Below, piece by piece: positions 58,169 to 63,619 of a stretch of DNA of 64,000 bases; the first letter of the stretch is position 1; each line of letters opens with the position of its first letter. The DNA is taken from positions 62,001-126,000 of the forward strand of contig NZ_JAAXCQ010000005.1 of NCBI RefSeq assembly GCF_012272855.1, read 5' to 3'. The position numbers were made by a program, and so were the translations under genes. This DNA comes from Arenibacter sp. 6A1. Lineage in GTDB: Bacteria; Bacteroidota; Bacteroidia; Flavobacteriales; Flavobacteriaceae. Below the pieces are notes generated by a model that had not been told where the DNA came from, made no database searches, and saw only the letters and a list, made by a program, of their open reading frames with translations.

Positions 58169-58241
58169 GGTGCCTTAGCTCAGTTGGTAGAGCAATGGAC
58201 TGAAAATCCATGTGTCCCTGGTTCGATTCCTGGAGGCACCA
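58169..58241 (+). tRNA. tRNA-Phe (GAA), copy 1
   Basis: A 73-base cloverleaf: acceptor GGTGCCT/AGGCACC with discriminator A, D arm GCTC/GAGC, anticodon stem ATGGA/TCCAT with loop CTGAAAA (anticodon GAA), and T arm CCTGG/CCTGG. After the discriminator the DNA reads CC then T, so CCA is completed after transcription. Confidence 0.97.
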
Positions 58242-58245
58242 CCTT

Positions 58246-58518: not shown

Positions 58519-58591
58519 GGTGCCTTAGCTCAGTTGGTAGAGCAATGGACTGAAAATCCATGTGTCCCTGGTTCGATTCCTGGAGGCACCA
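58519..58591 (+). tRNA. tRNA-Phe (GAA), copy 2
   Basis: Identical in sequence to copy 1, with its own promoter and terminator; both copies should be functional. Confidence 0.97.
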
Positions 58592-58595
58592 CCTT

Positions 58596-59121: not shown

Positions 59122-59613
59122 ATGAGATTTTTACTTCATATACTTACTTGTTTTCTCTGTATTTATAGTACTTACGGACAAAGGAGTATCGCAACAACTC
59201 TAGCAAAACTCAATTCAAATAGCGTTCCTTATATACAGGCCGAAACCCTGAACAATAGCGATGATTTTGTGCTTTTAGACGCTAGGACCCAAACAGAATT
59301 TCAAGTGAGCCATCTTAAAGATGCCCTTTGGGTAGGCCACAAAAAAAATCGGTTAAAAGAAATCCTTCTTCAATTTACGGATAAAAATACCCCCATGGTG
59401 GTGTATTGCTCTATTGGCGTACGATCCGAAAAATTAGGCGAAAAGCTTATGGCAAAAGGCTATTCGAAGGTCTATAATTTGTACGGCGGTATTTTTCTAT
59501 GGAAAAATTTAGGGCTTGCCGTGTATGACCCACAAGGCCAAGAAACCAATAAAGTACATGCCTATAACAAGCATTGGGGCAGCTTTTTGACGAATGCAGA
59601 TAAAATATATTAA
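59122..59613 (+). CDS. Secreted rhodanese-like domain protein
   Basis: The protein has 163 residues with a signal peptide (FLLHILTCFLCIYSTYGQ). A single rhodanese domain carries the active-site loop CSIGVRS with Cys96 in MVVYCSIGVRSEKLG, and LLDARTQTEFQVSHLKDA earlier. Rhodaneses hold sulfur as persulfide and some bind or reduce arsenic or selenium species. It is first in a plus-strand row of arsenosugar-type genes, but a direct part in that pathway is unproven. Confidence 0.88.
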   Translation: MRFLLHILTCFLCIYSTYGQRSIATTLAKLNSNSVPYIQAETLNNSDDFVLLDARTQTEFQVSHLKDALWVGHKKNRLKEILLQFTDKNTPMVVYCSIGVRSEKLGEKLMAKGYSKVYNLYGGIFLWKNLGLAVYDPQGQETNKVHAYNKHWGSFLTNADKIY

Positions 59614-59633
59614 GATAAAAATGCTTCTTATTA

Positions 59634-60245
59634 ATGACAGAAAAAGAAAACTTGCTCTTGATTTTTACCCGCAATCCAGAGTTAGGAAAATGCAAAACAA
59701 GATTAGCGGCCACCATTGGCGATAAGCCTGCACTAGCTATTTATACGTTTTTACTGCGCCATACCCAAACCATCACTACTCCCTTAAGCGCTACCAAAAC
59801 GGTATATTATTCCGAAAGCATTTGGGAAAACGATATTTGGGACCCTACTATTTATAAAAAGAGACTGCAGGAGGGTGAAGACCTGGGACAACGTATGAGC
59901 AATGCTTTTAGGGACGGTTTTGCGCAGGGTTATAAAAAAATCGTTATTATTGGGAGTGATATGTACGATTTAAGTACCGATAATTTAGCCCATGCCTTTG
60001 CGTCGTTGGACAAGGACGATTTTGTAGTTGGCCCGGCCATAGACGGCGGGTACTACTTATTGGGAATGACCCGTTATACGCCATCTCTTTTTGAGAACAA
60101 AGCATGGGGAAGCTCATCGGTTTTAAAAGACACATTGGACGATATTAAAGGGGAGCGCATTTGTTTATTGCCTCCCAAGAACGACATTGATTATTATGAG
60201 GATCTTAAGGGCATTGACGCTTTTGATCCTTTTTTAAAAAAATAA
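59634..60245 (+). CDS. TIGR04282-type glycosyltransferase (arsenosugar-associated, DUF2064)
   Basis: The protein has 203 residues in a small GT-A/nucleotidyltransferase-like fold. Family signs: LLIFTRNPELGKCKTRLAA, VIIGSDMYDLS (metal-binding Asp) and VGPAIDGGYYLLGM. This family was first named rSAM/selenodomain-associated transferase 1 and is now placed in arsenosugar clusters. The 6-base gap to the nucleoside phosphorylase gene implies one transcript. Confidence 0.9.
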   Translation: MTEKENLLLIFTRNPELGKCKTRLAATIGDKPALAIYTFLLRHTQTITTPLSATKTVYYSESIWENDIWDPTIYKKRLQEGEDLGQRMSNAFRDGFAQGYKKIVIIGSDMYDLSTDNLAHAFASLDKDDFVVGPAIDGGYYLLGMTRYTPSLFENKAWGSSSVLKDTLDDIKGERICLLPPKNDIDYYEDLKGIDAFDPFLKK

Positions 60246-60251
60246 TATTAT

Positions 60252-61067
60252 ATGCTAGAAAAACAATTAAAAGAATCTAAAGAGTACTTAATAGGCAAAG
60301 GATTTGACGCCCCCGAAATAGGCGTTGTTTTGGGTACAGGTTTGGGCAAGCTTGCCGATGAAATAGAAAACCCCATAGAGGCCCATTACAACCATATCCC
60401 TTTTTTCCCGTTGGCCACGGTAGAATTTCACTCGGGGAAATTAATATACGGGACCTATGAAGGCAAAAAAATAGTGGTCATGCATGGTCGTTTTCATTTT
60501 TATGAAGGCTACGATTTACAAGATGTCACCTATCCTATTAGGGTAATGCATCAGCTAGGCATAAAAAAACTCTTTATTTCCAATGCTTCCGGAGCCATCA
60601 ACCTCAACTTTAAAAAAGGCGAGCTAATGCTGATCGAAGACCATATCAACTTACAGGGAGGATCTCCTTTAGCCTTTAAAAATGTCGCCAAACACGGTAG
60701 CCGCTTTACAGATATGTGCGAACCCTATGATGTTTCGATGCGCAAACGCTTGATTGAAATTGCGGAAAAAGAAAATATTAGCCTGCAAAAAGGAGTATAT
60801 GTTTCGGTTGTTGGACCTCAATTGGAAACCAAGGCCGAATACAGAATGTTAAAAATCATTGGTGCCGATGCCGTAGGAATGAGTACCGTCCCGGAAGTTA
60901 TCGTGGCAAACCATCTGCAATTGCCAGTAGTGGCCATTTCCGTGCTAACGGACGAATGCGATCCTGACAATTTAAAACCTGTTAATATTTCAGAAATTAT
61001 ACAGATCGCGGAAAGTACCGAGCCAAAAATGATTACCTTATTTAGGGAACTTATAAGAACCCTTTAA
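60252..61067 (+). CDS. Purine nucleoside phosphorylase
   Basis: The protein has 271 residues, trimeric PNP/MTAP family. Seen: GVVLGTGLGKLADEI with phosphate-binding residues, EFHSGKLIYG, MHGRFHFYEGY (phosphate-binding Arg/His), SNASGAINLNFKKGELMLIEDHIN and the C-terminal VGMSTVPEVIVANH with the purine-site region. It splits purine nucleosides with phosphate. Here it could also remove adenine from a 5'-arseno-adenosine intermediate, as the gene lies between a TIGR04282 transferase and arsM. Confidence 0.93.
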   Translation: MLEKQLKESKEYLIGKGFDAPEIGVVLGTGLGKLADEIENPIEAHYNHIPFFPLATVEFHSGKLIYGTYEGKKIVVMHGRFHFYEGYDLQDVTYPIRVMHQLGIKKLFISNASGAINLNFKKGELMLIEDHINLQGGSPLAFKNVAKHGSRFTDMCEPYDVSMRKRLIEIAEKENISLQKGVYVSVVGPQLETKAEYRMLKIIGADAVGMSTVPEVIVANHLQLPVVAISVLTDECDPDNLKPVNISEIIQIAESTEPKMITLFRELIRTL

Positions 61068-61138
61068 AATTTACCAATCCCGAAAGGGAACAGGCTGATT
61101 TTCGTATTCCGAAATATCAATCTTAAAACAACAGATAT

Positions 61139-62104
61139 ATGAGCTATTTAGACGCCACCAATGATTTATATAGAGAAGCTGCCCTGACCCCAGATGTTGG
61201 GCTATGTTGCACCACCAATCCTATTTGGCAGTTTCCGGGACTATCGATTCCTAAAATAATGCAAGAGATGAACTACGGCTGCGGCAGTACGGTCTCTGCC
61301 CAAGACCTGGTTAACAACCCTAAGGTATTGTATGTAGGTGTCGGCGGAGGCATGGAACTATTACAGTTCTCCTATTTTTCTAGGCAAAAAGGAGGGGTTA
61401 CCGGGGTAGATGTCGTAGACGAAATGCTAGAAGCCTCGAAAAAGAACTTTAAAATCGCCGAAGAAGAAAACGATTGGTTTAAGAGCGAGTACATAAACCT
61501 TGTGAAAGGCGACGCCCTTAATCTACCTATTGCCGATGCCAGTATAGATGTGGCTGCACAGAATTGTTTGTTCAATATTTTTAAGGCCGAGGACCTTAAG
61601 AAAGCCGTAGCAGAAATGTACCGCGTATTAAAACCCCATGGCCGCTTGGTGATGAGCGACCCTACTTGCGAGCAGCCTATGAACGAGGCTTTAAGGAACG
61701 ATGATCGGCTTAGAGCCTTGTGCCTAAGCGGCAGTATACCTATTAAGGACTATATTAAGGTACTGACCGATGCCGGTTTTGGCACTATTGAAGTACGCGC
61801 AAGAAAATCGTACCGGGTTTTATCTCCCAACCACTATCCAACGGACGAATTGATCTTTATAGAATCTATAGAAATTGCCGCCATTAAGGATCCAATGCCA
61901 AAAGACGGGCCTTGTATTTTTACCGGAAAAACGGCCATTTATTATGGAGACGAAGAATACTTTGACGATAAAAACGGTCATGTATTAATGCAAAACCAAC
62001 CTTTGGCGGTTTGCGACAAAACAGCTTCGGCCCTACAAGAATCGAATAGCCAGATCCATATTAGCGATAGCACTTGGCACTATAATGGTGGCGGATGCTG
62101 CTAA
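61139..62104 (+). CDS. arsM: Arsenosugar-type arsenite methyltransferase ArsM
   Basis: The protein has 321 residues. The SAM-binding motif VGVGGGMEL is at 66-74. Arsenic-binding Cys candidates are Cys23 and Cys24 (GLCCTTNP), Cys48 (MNYGCGSTV) and a Cys in SDPTCEQP; the protein ends GGGCC. QFPGLSIPKIMQEMNYGCG is typical of the ArsM form found with arsenosugar genes, rather than detoxifying ArsM of other bacteria. It should methylate trivalent arsenic with SAM. Confidence 0.92.
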   Translation: MSYLDATNDLYREAALTPDVGLCCTTNPIWQFPGLSIPKIMQEMNYGCGSTVSAQDLVNNPKVLYVGVGGGMELLQFSYFSRQKGGVTGVDVVDEMLEASKKNFKIAEEENDWFKSEYINLVKGDALNLPIADASIDVAAQNCLFNIFKAEDLKKAVAEMYRVLKPHGRLVMSDPTCEQPMNEALRNDDRLRALCLSGSIPIKDYIKVLTDAGFGTIEVRARKSYRVLSPNHYPTDELIFIESIEIAAIKDPMPKDGPCIFTGKTAIYYGDEEYFDDKNGHVLMQNQPLAVCDKTASALQESNSQIHISDSTWHYNGGGCC

Positions 62105-62172
62105 TGTAGTTTTGCGATGTAAGGAATAAAACACCTTATATACTACTATAGAGTAAGATAATATGAGATCCC

Positions 62173-62925
62173 ATGCAACGAATAGCAGCAGTATTAGTTT
62201 TTATTTTTTTCGTTAGTGCCACCCCACATCCTATTAGTTATGGGAAGCTGCCTAATGAAAGGCTTGAACAACAAGTACCGCTAGACCATTCTGCATGGGA
62301 TCTTTTGCTTAAAAAATATGTCGATGCGGCGGGCAATGTAGCCTATGAGAAGTTTGCTGCCGACTCCCCTGCCCTAGCGCAATATTTGTCTTATCTGACC
62401 AAGAACGCCCCCCTGGAAAGCTGGACAAGACAGGAAAAACTCGCCTATTACATCAATCTATACAATGCGGCAACGGTAAAGCTTATTTTAGACCATTACC
62501 CTCTTAAAAGTATCAAGGAGCTCAAAAGCCCATGGGGCAGCAAAGTGGTACCTCTTGGGAAGGACAAAATATCCTTGGGCCATTTGGAACACCGAATCTT
62601 GCGGAAGATGGACGATCCAAGGATACATTTTGCCATTAATTGTGCCTCCTACTCCTGCCCCAAATTACTGAACGAAGCTTTTATTTCCGCCACTATAGAT
62701 ACCCAACTGAACAAGGCCGCCCGGGATTTCATCAACGATCCCTCAAGGAATCAACTTTCGGGCCCTGAGGTATCCCTGTCACAAATTTTTAATTGGTACA
62801 AAAAAGATTTTACCAAAGATGGTAGTCTAATAGCATATATTAACCGCTATAGCAGCAAAGTACTACCCTCGGACACAAAATTTAGCTATCTAAAATACAA
62901 TTGGGCCTTAAATGAAAAACAATAA
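62173..62925 (+). CDS. DUF547 domain protein, secreted
   Basis: The protein has 250 residues with a signal peptide (IAAVLVFIFFVSATP). The DUF547 core spans about 75-200: LAYYINLYNAATVKLILDHYPLKSI and HFAINCASYSCPKL with conserved His and Cys, which look like a papain-like active centre. DUF547 proteins recur in arsenosugar-type gene groups, but their function is unknown. It overlaps the next glycosyltransferase by 14 bases. Confidence 0.88.
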   Translation: MQRIAAVLVFIFFVSATPHPISYGKLPNERLEQQVPLDHSAWDLLLKKYVDAAGNVAYEKFAADSPALAQYLSYLTKNAPLESWTRQEKLAYYINLYNAATVKLILDHYPLKSIKELKSPWGSKVVPLGKDKISLGHLEHRILRKMDDPRIHFAINCASYSCPKLLNEAFISATIDTQLNKAARDFINDPSRNQLSGPEVSLSQIFNWYKKDFTKDGSLIAYINRYSSKVLPSDTKFSYLKYNWALNEKQ

Positions 62926-63619
62926 CCAAAAAACCATCAGTATTATTATTCCTGTTTTAAACGAGGAAAAGCACCTGGGCAGATTAATCGGTTATCTAAA
63001 GGCCAATAGCCATAAAGAAAACATCGAAGAAATTATGATCATCGATGGCGGAAGTGATGACCAAAGTGCATCTATTGCCATGGAAATGGGCGTTCGTTTA
63101 TTACAGTCCGAAAAAGGCAGAGCCAAACAAATGAACCATGGGGCAAAACACGCTTTGGGAGATATCCTTTATTTTTTACATGTCGATACTTTTCCACCAA
63201 ACAACTTTGATCAGCACATCCTAAAGGAAGTCGACCAAGGCTATGAAACTGGTTGTTTTAGGATGGTTTTTGATAGCCGACATTGGTTTCTGCGTTTTTT
63301 TGCCTTCCTTTCTCGGTTAAACCTAAAAATTTGTCGCGGGGGAGATCAATCCCTTTTTATCAGCAAAGCGTTATTTAAAAGCGCCAAAGGATTTAATGAG
63401 CAGTATATAATTTATGAAGACAGTGAATTTATTGGTCGATTATACCAAATGACGACCTTTAAAGTGATTCCGCAAAACGTCACCACCTCGGCCCGTAAGT
63501 ACCGTCAAATCGGATTATTAAGATTGCAGTATCATTTTGGAGTAATCCATTTAAAAAATATGTTTGGGGCGGGTCCGGATAAATTATACGATTACTACAG
63601 ACGAAAAATTGTTTCTTAG
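62912..63619 (+). CDS. TIGR04283-type glycosyltransferase (arsenosugar-associated)
   Basis: The protein has 235 residues, GT2 fold. ISIIIPVLNEEKHLGRLI and IMIIDGGSDDQS form the nucleotide-sugar site, then EKGRAKQMNHGAKHALGDILYFLHVDT with the metal-binding DxD-like HVD; GGDQSLFISK follows. The family (formerly rSAM/selenodomain-associated transferase 2) occurs with TIGR04282 and ArsM. It should transfer a sugar to the arsenical or another small acceptor. Confidence 0.9.
   Translation: MKNNNQKTISIIIPVLNEEKHLGRLIGYLKANSHKENIEEIMIIDGGSDDQSASIAMEMGVRLLQSEKGRAKQMNHGAKHALGDILYFLHVDTFPPNNFDQHILKEVDQGYETGCFRMVFDSRHWFLRFFAFLSRLNLKICRGGDQSLFISKALFKSAKGFNEQYIIYEDSEFIGRLYQMTTFKVIPQNVTTSARKYRQIGLLRLQYHFGVIHLKNMFGAGPDKLYDYYRRKIVS

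Follow-up and report, generated by a model that had tools for sequence, protein, structure and literature searches.

The window analysed here is a stretch of 64,000 nucleotides from Arenibacter sp. 6A1, a relative of Maribacter (G000:C56:62001-126000, where G000 is the organism's own genome). It contains a plus-strand row of six genes, among them those for the arsenosugar-type arsenite methyltransferase ArsM and for a purine nucleoside phosphorylase (PNP). We put at roughly 0.7 the probability that an arsenosugar operon has been split, with this row as its larger half, and that, judging from sequence comparison, the PNP would cleave the product of ArsS, a radical S-adenosylmethionine (SAM) enzyme. 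The other half of the operon, a peroxidase-like gene and ArsS, is on a different contig of the genome. The PNP has a changed binding pocket and is a good candidate for removing adenine from the arsenic intermediate. A sequence-only reading of the window had raised the phosphorylase as a possible adenine-removal step, a suggestion that gained support from the linkage of the gene, from the residues of the pocket and from a separate methylthioadenosine (MTA) phosphorylase (MTAP) in proteobacterial clusters. The chemistry of ArsM and ArsS has been published, according to the available excerpts of PMC8552651 and PMC12159101.

The row in the window and ArsS on a second contig

Protein identities were scored with curated family models and their cut-offs; DUF547 was identified by Pfam. 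The row begins with a rhodanese-domain protein of the "near glycosyltransferase" subfamily (163 residues, 59122–59613; NF045521 rhoda_near_glyco, 187.9 bits, cut-off 145), followed by a TIGR04282/DUF2064 transferase (203 residues, 59634–60245; TIGR04282, 205 bits, cut-off 134) and the PNP (271 residues, 60252–61067), which scored 341 bits on NF006054 (cut-off 218), 291 on TIGR01697 (197) and 296 on TIGR01700 (293). ArsM comes next (321 residues, 61139–62104; NF038099 AsSugarArsM, 565 bits, cut-off 400), then a DUF547 protein (250 residues, 62173–62925; PF04784, 93 bits) and a TIGR04283 GT2 glycosyltransferase (235 residues, 62912–63619; TIGR04283, 229 bits, cut-off 182). Five of these proteins, namely the rhodanese, TIGR04282, PNP, ArsM and TIGR04283, were above the curated cut-offs. 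The genes are spaced by 20, 6, 71 and 68 bp, and the final pair shares 14 bp. All six open reading frames (ORFs) that had been read as one plus-strand row with small gaps or overlaps were thus confirmed, as were the CC motifs ascribed to ArsM, which has a CC pair close to its N-terminus and ends in GGCC.

The claim that ArsS is absent was correct for the row, since BLAST found none in the 19 kb fetched around it, and incorrect for the genome. A genome-wide search for the arsenosugar radical-SAM family located ArsS on contig C59 (G000:C59:218238-219143; TIGR04167, 438 bits, cut-off 300), with the cysteines of the CxxxCxxC motif (C69, C73 and C76) and of the C-terminal part (C340, C343 and C351) unchanged in 12 aligned sequences. 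The idea that the missing ArsS might mean a different product was therefore rejected, and the other option, that arsS lies elsewhere, was borne out by this match and by the undivided operon in relatives. The separation of the two halves is not an artefact of contig edges, since the row occupies about 121–126 kb on a contig of 279 kb, and ArsS lies at about 218 kb on one of 261 kb.

The neighbourhood of ArsS on C59 comprises, on one strand, a second DUF2064 protein (locus L003, 7943–8701), an arsenosugar-associated peroxidase-like protein (TIGR04169, 197 bits, cut-off 120), ArsS and a TetR-family regulator (PF00440; L003, 5138–5752). The second DUF2064 protein reached 101 bits on TIGR04282, below the cut-off of 134. 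In the split lineage, the peroxidase-like gene and ArsS have this regulator as a neighbour, and it may control them. The same peroxidase-like/ArsS/TetR arrangement was found in G134, G130 and G234, and in named loci of Arenibacter, Maribacter, Muricauda, Poritiphilus and Pseudozobellia, where PNP and ArsM were absent from the fetched stretch. Thus, the split is common to a group of relatives. In the family one shared cluster is usual, though not a defining feature, and because many relatives hold ArsS, TIGR04282, PNP and ArsM together, we regard the arrangement in the Arenibacter genome, with ArsS and ArsM on separate contigs, as a split operon. The fullest version, seen in G367 and G198, consists of genes for the peroxidase-like protein, ArsS, rhodanese, TIGR04282, PNP, ArsM, DUF547 and TIGR04283.

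The 80 best of at least 592 matches served as a set of named ArsS loci. Within the fetched stretch the peroxidase-like gene was present in 77, PNP in 55, TIGR04282 in 54 and ArsM in 43. By BLAST, DUF547 recurred in 35/80 (and also in plasmid clusters) and relatives of the second DUF2064 protein in 24/80. The rhodanese type of the window adjoins TIGR04282 in many relatives as well.

Association of the phosphorylase with ArsS

Among 395 genomes of the phylum, NF038099 was above its cut-off in 26. ArsS was above cut-off in 27/27, that is, in those 26 and in G224, whose genome retains an intact ArsS although its arsenosugar ArsM is reduced to a remnant interrupted by in-frame stops (G224:C24:71734-72105, locus L034). 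The PNP was found in the fetched ArsM neighbourhood in all 17 of the 26 genomes that belong to the window's family, the Arenibacter genome included.

The family was sampled with 199 genomes, one per genus, of which 117 have ArsM and 148 have ArsS. Every ArsM-positive genome (117/117) has both ArsS and PNP, and every ArsS-positive genome (148/148) has PNP, while ArsS was present in 0/23 genomes without PNP (three of the 23 were assigned by deduction from the sample numbering). For ArsS against PNP, Fisher's test gave p = 2.6e-16, a value that takes no account of relatedness or of the small or incomplete genomes in the group lacking PNP. Among the matches listed, which cover 99 of the 117 ArsM-positive genomes, no more than 1,275 bp separate the PNP from ArsM in 97; in the two exceptions the PNP is 9.3 kb away and on another contig, respectively. 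A phosphorylase found mostly outside such clusters and unlinked to ArsM would have spoken against the sequence-only reading, and in this family the linkage to ArsM and ArsS is tight.

The PNP persists with ArsS where ArsM is missing. Of the 59 ArsM-negative genomes with PNP, 50 were examined (among the matches listed), and ArsS was present in 27: in none of the 10 with a His-type PNP (see below) and in 27 of the 40 others. In 11 of these 27 ArsS is within six genes of the PNP, the PNP loci having been mapped for 48 of the 50. Sixteen named ArsS loci have PNP and no ArsM. Eight of them (L135, L144, L146, L151, L156, L163, L164 and L170) were not counted as cases of ArsM absence because inserted genes place the PNP near the end of the locus, or because the locus is short. 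In the remaining eight, among them loci of Gelidibacter, Salinimicrobium, Salegentibacter and Confluentibacter, the fetched stretch holds ArsS and PNP and lacks ArsM. The PNP is thus associated with ArsS, not with ArsM alone. This pattern bears on the suggestion that the PNP might serve as an arsenate reductase through arsenolysis plus thiols, supplying arsenite to ArsM, as mammalian PNP and thiols reduce arsenate in vitro (Gregus and Nemeti 2002, as cited in the available part of PMC12608789). A PNP that remains with ArsS where arsenosugar ArsM was not found, that differs from the housekeeping PNPs of the family on the 5'-side of its pocket and that keeps the His86 equivalent makes such a function extremely unlikely.

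Ordinary purine salvage would be another explanation, with the gene having drifted into the operon and been retained by chance or co-regulation. TIGR01697 matches are indeed widespread in the family, occurring in 176/199 genomes (175 above cut-off), 170 of which have a single match. However, the linkage of the PNP has been kept over many genera, and a separate lineage of PNPs, linked to lpxK, has a different pocket; three genomes (G289, G084 and G218) hold both types. The Arenibacter genome encodes in addition a DeoD-type PNP (NF004489, 359 bits), on which ordinary salvage could rest. We therefore consider a mere salvage gene quite improbable.

What we regard as the strongest evidence for adenine removal by a phosphorylase is the presence of MTAP in proteobacterial clusters, an argument from gene content and sequence. 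Plasmid-borne ArsS was found in 52 records from six genera, 47 of them Burkholderia, with one each from Cupriavidus, Acinetobacter and Thiodictyon. The comparison was confined to plasmids, with one record per genus for the six genera, and MTAP was part of the arsenosugar cluster in three, all Proteobacteria. In Burkholderia glumae, MTAP lies 17 bp from TIGR04283, with TIGR04282 next and arsS about 6 kb away on the other strand. In Cupriavidus sp. KK10, the likely MTAP ATG is four bases past the TIGR04282 stop, in a row of an ArsM-like methyltransferase (below the cut-off of every ArsM model listed), ArsS (466 bits), TIGR04283 (278) and TIGR04282 (202), with DUF547 further on. The Acinetobacter portensis row comprises ArsS, an FAD oxidoreductase fusion, DUF547, TIGR04283, TIGR04282, a methyltransferase and a phosphate transporter, with MTAP at its end on the opposite strand. 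The MTAPs of A. portensis, B. glumae and Cupriavidus scored 315, 312 and 277 bits on TIGR01694 (cut-off 275), a model on which the window PNP reached 100.9 bits (exact cut-off 274.85). They are 23–24% identical to the window PNP, so two different branches of the superfamily occur in the same pathway. The presence of two different nucleoside phosphorylases in one pathway in turn supports phosphorolytic removal of adenine from the ArsS product.

The phosphorylase clade and its binding pocket

A tree was calculated from 133 distinct PNPs, with a bootstrap that had not fully settled. We defined cluster PNPs as those with TIGR04282, ArsS or ArsM within eight genes. One branch (support 100/96) unites 103 cluster PNPs with seven PNPs lacking a cluster and is distinct from the family's lpxK-linked PNPs. 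Positions were read from alignments with solved PNPs and of the PNPs with one another, and are given in human PNP numbering assigned by motif, the human sequence being outside the alignment. At the position equivalent to His257, 103/103 cluster PNPs have Ile or Val, whereas 13/13 housekeeping PNPs of the family have His; at the position of Phe200, 103/103 have Leu, compared to Phe in 13/13. Pocket residues of the window PNP, numbered along its own sequence, are Leu191, Glu192, Asp234 and Ile246, and the equivalents of His86, Tyr88 and Glu201 are kept.

His257 of the human enzyme makes a bond to the 5'-OH, and Phe200 is part of the lining of the ribose site (from the available part of PMC3214022; for His257 also that of PMC12648331). 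The latter source, as far as its text was available, reports a hydrogen bond from ligand to side chain for 1/21 ligands in MTAP structures, compared to 81/89 in nucleoside phosphorylases. In the three cluster MTAPs that were aligned, the His257 position is occupied by Val, Val or Ala. The loss of the partner for the 5'-OH would fit the need of a nucleoside substrate that is 5'-deoxy and 5'-substituted. Asp at the Asn243 position was also considered as a signature for adenine and was dropped, since the 13 housekeeping PNPs of the family have Asp too.

A phosphorylase tolerant of such substrates might instead be a general 5'-deoxyadenosine/methylthioadenosine phosphorylase that clears by-products beside ArsS and leaves the arsenic intermediate untouched. 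We searched 74 family genomes for MtnN (TIGR01704, E up to 1e-10) and found it in 9/10 of those with only a His-type PNP (eight above cut-off) and in 0/64 others, the latter made up of the Arenibacter genome itself, 40 ArsM-negative genomes with PNP, 16 ArsM-positive genomes and seven without PNP. This distribution speaks for such a general phosphorylase, but the contrast is not far from one clade-level split, and all seven of the PNP-less genomes searched lack MtnN as well. ArsS adenosylates arsenic, according to the available text of PMC12159101, and its main product may therefore be other than free 5'-deoxyadenosine; both the tight linkage of PNP to ArsS and the separate MTAP in proteobacterial ArsS clusters point away from general clearance. 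We consider an exclusive role in by-product removal rather unlikely. A phosphorylase broadly tolerant at the 5'-position could do both jobs, which would explain the MtnN pattern as well as the PNPs that lack a cluster.

Overall, MtnN was observed in just nine of the 74 family genomes searched.

Several observations weigh against cleavage of the ArsS product by the PNP. Association of PNP with ArsM, which the sequence-only reading had proposed to compare across Bacteroidota, was found within the family of the window and not in other families, where PNP was near intact ArsM in 0/9 genomes. For the plasmids of Hymenobacter, Pseudanabaena and Thiodictyon, the annotation shows neither PNP nor MTAP in the 9 kb around ArsS, and the MTAP observation amounts to one record in each of three genera. 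BLAST with MTAP, MtnN, the DeoD-type and uridine-phosphorylase-like proteins of Arenibacter and PNP found no other nucleoside-cleaving gene in the PNP-free loci of Bacteroidota, Pseudanabaena and Thiodictyon, a search that excluded nucleoside hydrolases of other folds, in loci where most neighbours are unannotated. The pocket signature is also less specific than it would appear from the family: among ten PNPs from other Bacteroidota families that lie outside such clusters and away from ArsS, the two positions are Leu in 9/10 and Ile, Val or Leu in 9/10, which weakens any claim that it is unique to the cluster. Asp at the Asn243 position and the kept Glu201 do not separate the groups or point to a base preference, and the window PNP narrowly passed TIGR01700 (by 3 bits), a model named "inosine and guanosine-specific". 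A cluster enzyme restricted to 6-oxopurines would require a preceding deaminase step, by analogy with methylthioinosine in Plasmodium, where a deaminase acts first (available part of PMC3214022); with the curated models and Pfam, no deaminase was identified among the six proteins of the row.

Two further sets of genomes belong with these observations. Seven genomes of the family have a cluster-type PNP but neither the cluster nor ArsS, from which a further role of this PNP is likely; the same seven fit a general phosphorylase. Five others (G517, G565, G429, G182 and G411; loci L243, L259, L265, L270 and L271) keep rhodanese, TIGR04282, PNP and TIGR04283 together, and neither ArsM nor ArsS was detected in them. 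In both sets the enzyme presumably serves another purpose. Such retention of transferases and PNP could mean that the cluster handles another metalloid or a thio-adenosine product, for example of selenium, and that the label "arsenosugar" is misleading; TIGR04167 indeed has the short name rSAM_SeCys, and the annotation reads "(seleno)protein ArsS". However, an arsenosugar-type ArsM is encoded in the operon and in the 117 family genomes noted above, every one of which has ArsS, and we regard a product without arsenic as very unlikely.

Proposed pathway, neighbouring genes and known systems

In the arsenosugar pathway that we propose, ArsM would produce a dimethylarsenical, to which ArsS would attach a 5'-deoxyadenosyl group through the arsenic. 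The PNP of the row, with phosphate, would then cleave the N-glycosidic bond, yielding adenine and 5-deoxy-5-dimethylarsinoyl-ribose 1-phosphate. The TIGR04282 protein would activate or transfer the arseno-ribose, and the TIGR04282 and TIGR04283 proteins together would use the activated sugar to build the glycoside, with TIGR04283 presumably carrying out the final glycosyl transfer. We infer the acceptance of arseno-adenosine by the PNP, phosphate as the nucleophile and the roles of both transferases. The sole solved relative of the TIGR04282 protein is 3CGX, a "putative nucleotide-diphospho-sugar transferase". A more specific version of the route, in which the flavobacterial PNP clade and, independently, the proteobacterial MTAP yield arseno-ribose 1-phosphate, from which TIGR04282 (model name glyco_like_cofC) makes a nucleotide sugar for TIGR04283, is offered tentatively, at somewhat less than even odds.

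If the proposal is correct, the next intermediate is arseno-ribose 1-phosphate and the sugar stays activated, and two transferase families known by number alone gain a defined substrate. The comparison yields a concrete candidate enzyme, a pocket signature that can be tested and a second candidate, MTAP, from another branch. More speculatively, it might aid in judging which bacteria make arsenosugars in nature.

Other genes recur around the operon in relatives. A fatty-acid-hydroxylase-family protein (PF04116; L242, 8592–9488, and relatives) lies between PNP/ArsM and DUF547 in 18 of the 80 named ArsS loci, a "sterol desaturase family protein" occurs in two plasmid clusters also, and a connection with arsenolipids is possible. 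In several genera (L144, L146, L151, L163 and others), a block of TonB-dependent receptor, SusD-like protein, sodium:solute symporter and metallophosphoesterase, identified by Pfam on L260 (9822–15998), is inserted between ArsS and rhodanese; in Maribacter it lies upstream of ArsS. This block could take up organoarsenicals. In the window itself, the row is flanked as had been read, with two tRNA-Phe genes on the left (58169–58243 and 58519–58593) and, on the right, a convergent ORF, a putative hydrolase in the sequence-only reading, that extends from 63758 to beyond the window end.

One of the known systems nearest to this one is the cyanobacterial arsenosugar pathway with ArsM and ArsS of Synechocystis (Xue et al. 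2019; Cheng et al. 2021; as cited in the available parts of PMC8552651 and PMC12159101). In the literature searched, as far as its text was available, no enzyme is named for removing adenine from the ArsS product, and nothing assigns a nucleoside phosphorylase a part in making arsenosugars. Like the cyanobacterial pathway, the Arenibacter genome has ArsM (NF038099) and ArsS (TIGR04167); in contrast to it, ArsM here shares its operon with PNP, two transferases, rhodanese and DUF547, and lies apart from ArsS. The PNP resembles the trimeric PNP-I enzymes (TIGR01700/NF006054; best solved match 4LNA) in its family scores and in its His86, Tyr88 and Glu201 equivalents. It differs from human PNP in having Ile246 in place of His257 and Leu191 in place of Phe200, and from lpxK-linked PNP-I in being located in the ArsM operon and not beside an lpxK-like gene. 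With MTAP/MtnP it shares a residue other than His at the His257 position, and MTAP is likewise a member of arsenosugar clusters, in Proteobacteria; nevertheless, with 23–24% identity and 101 bits on TIGR01694, the window PNP is distinct from MTAP.

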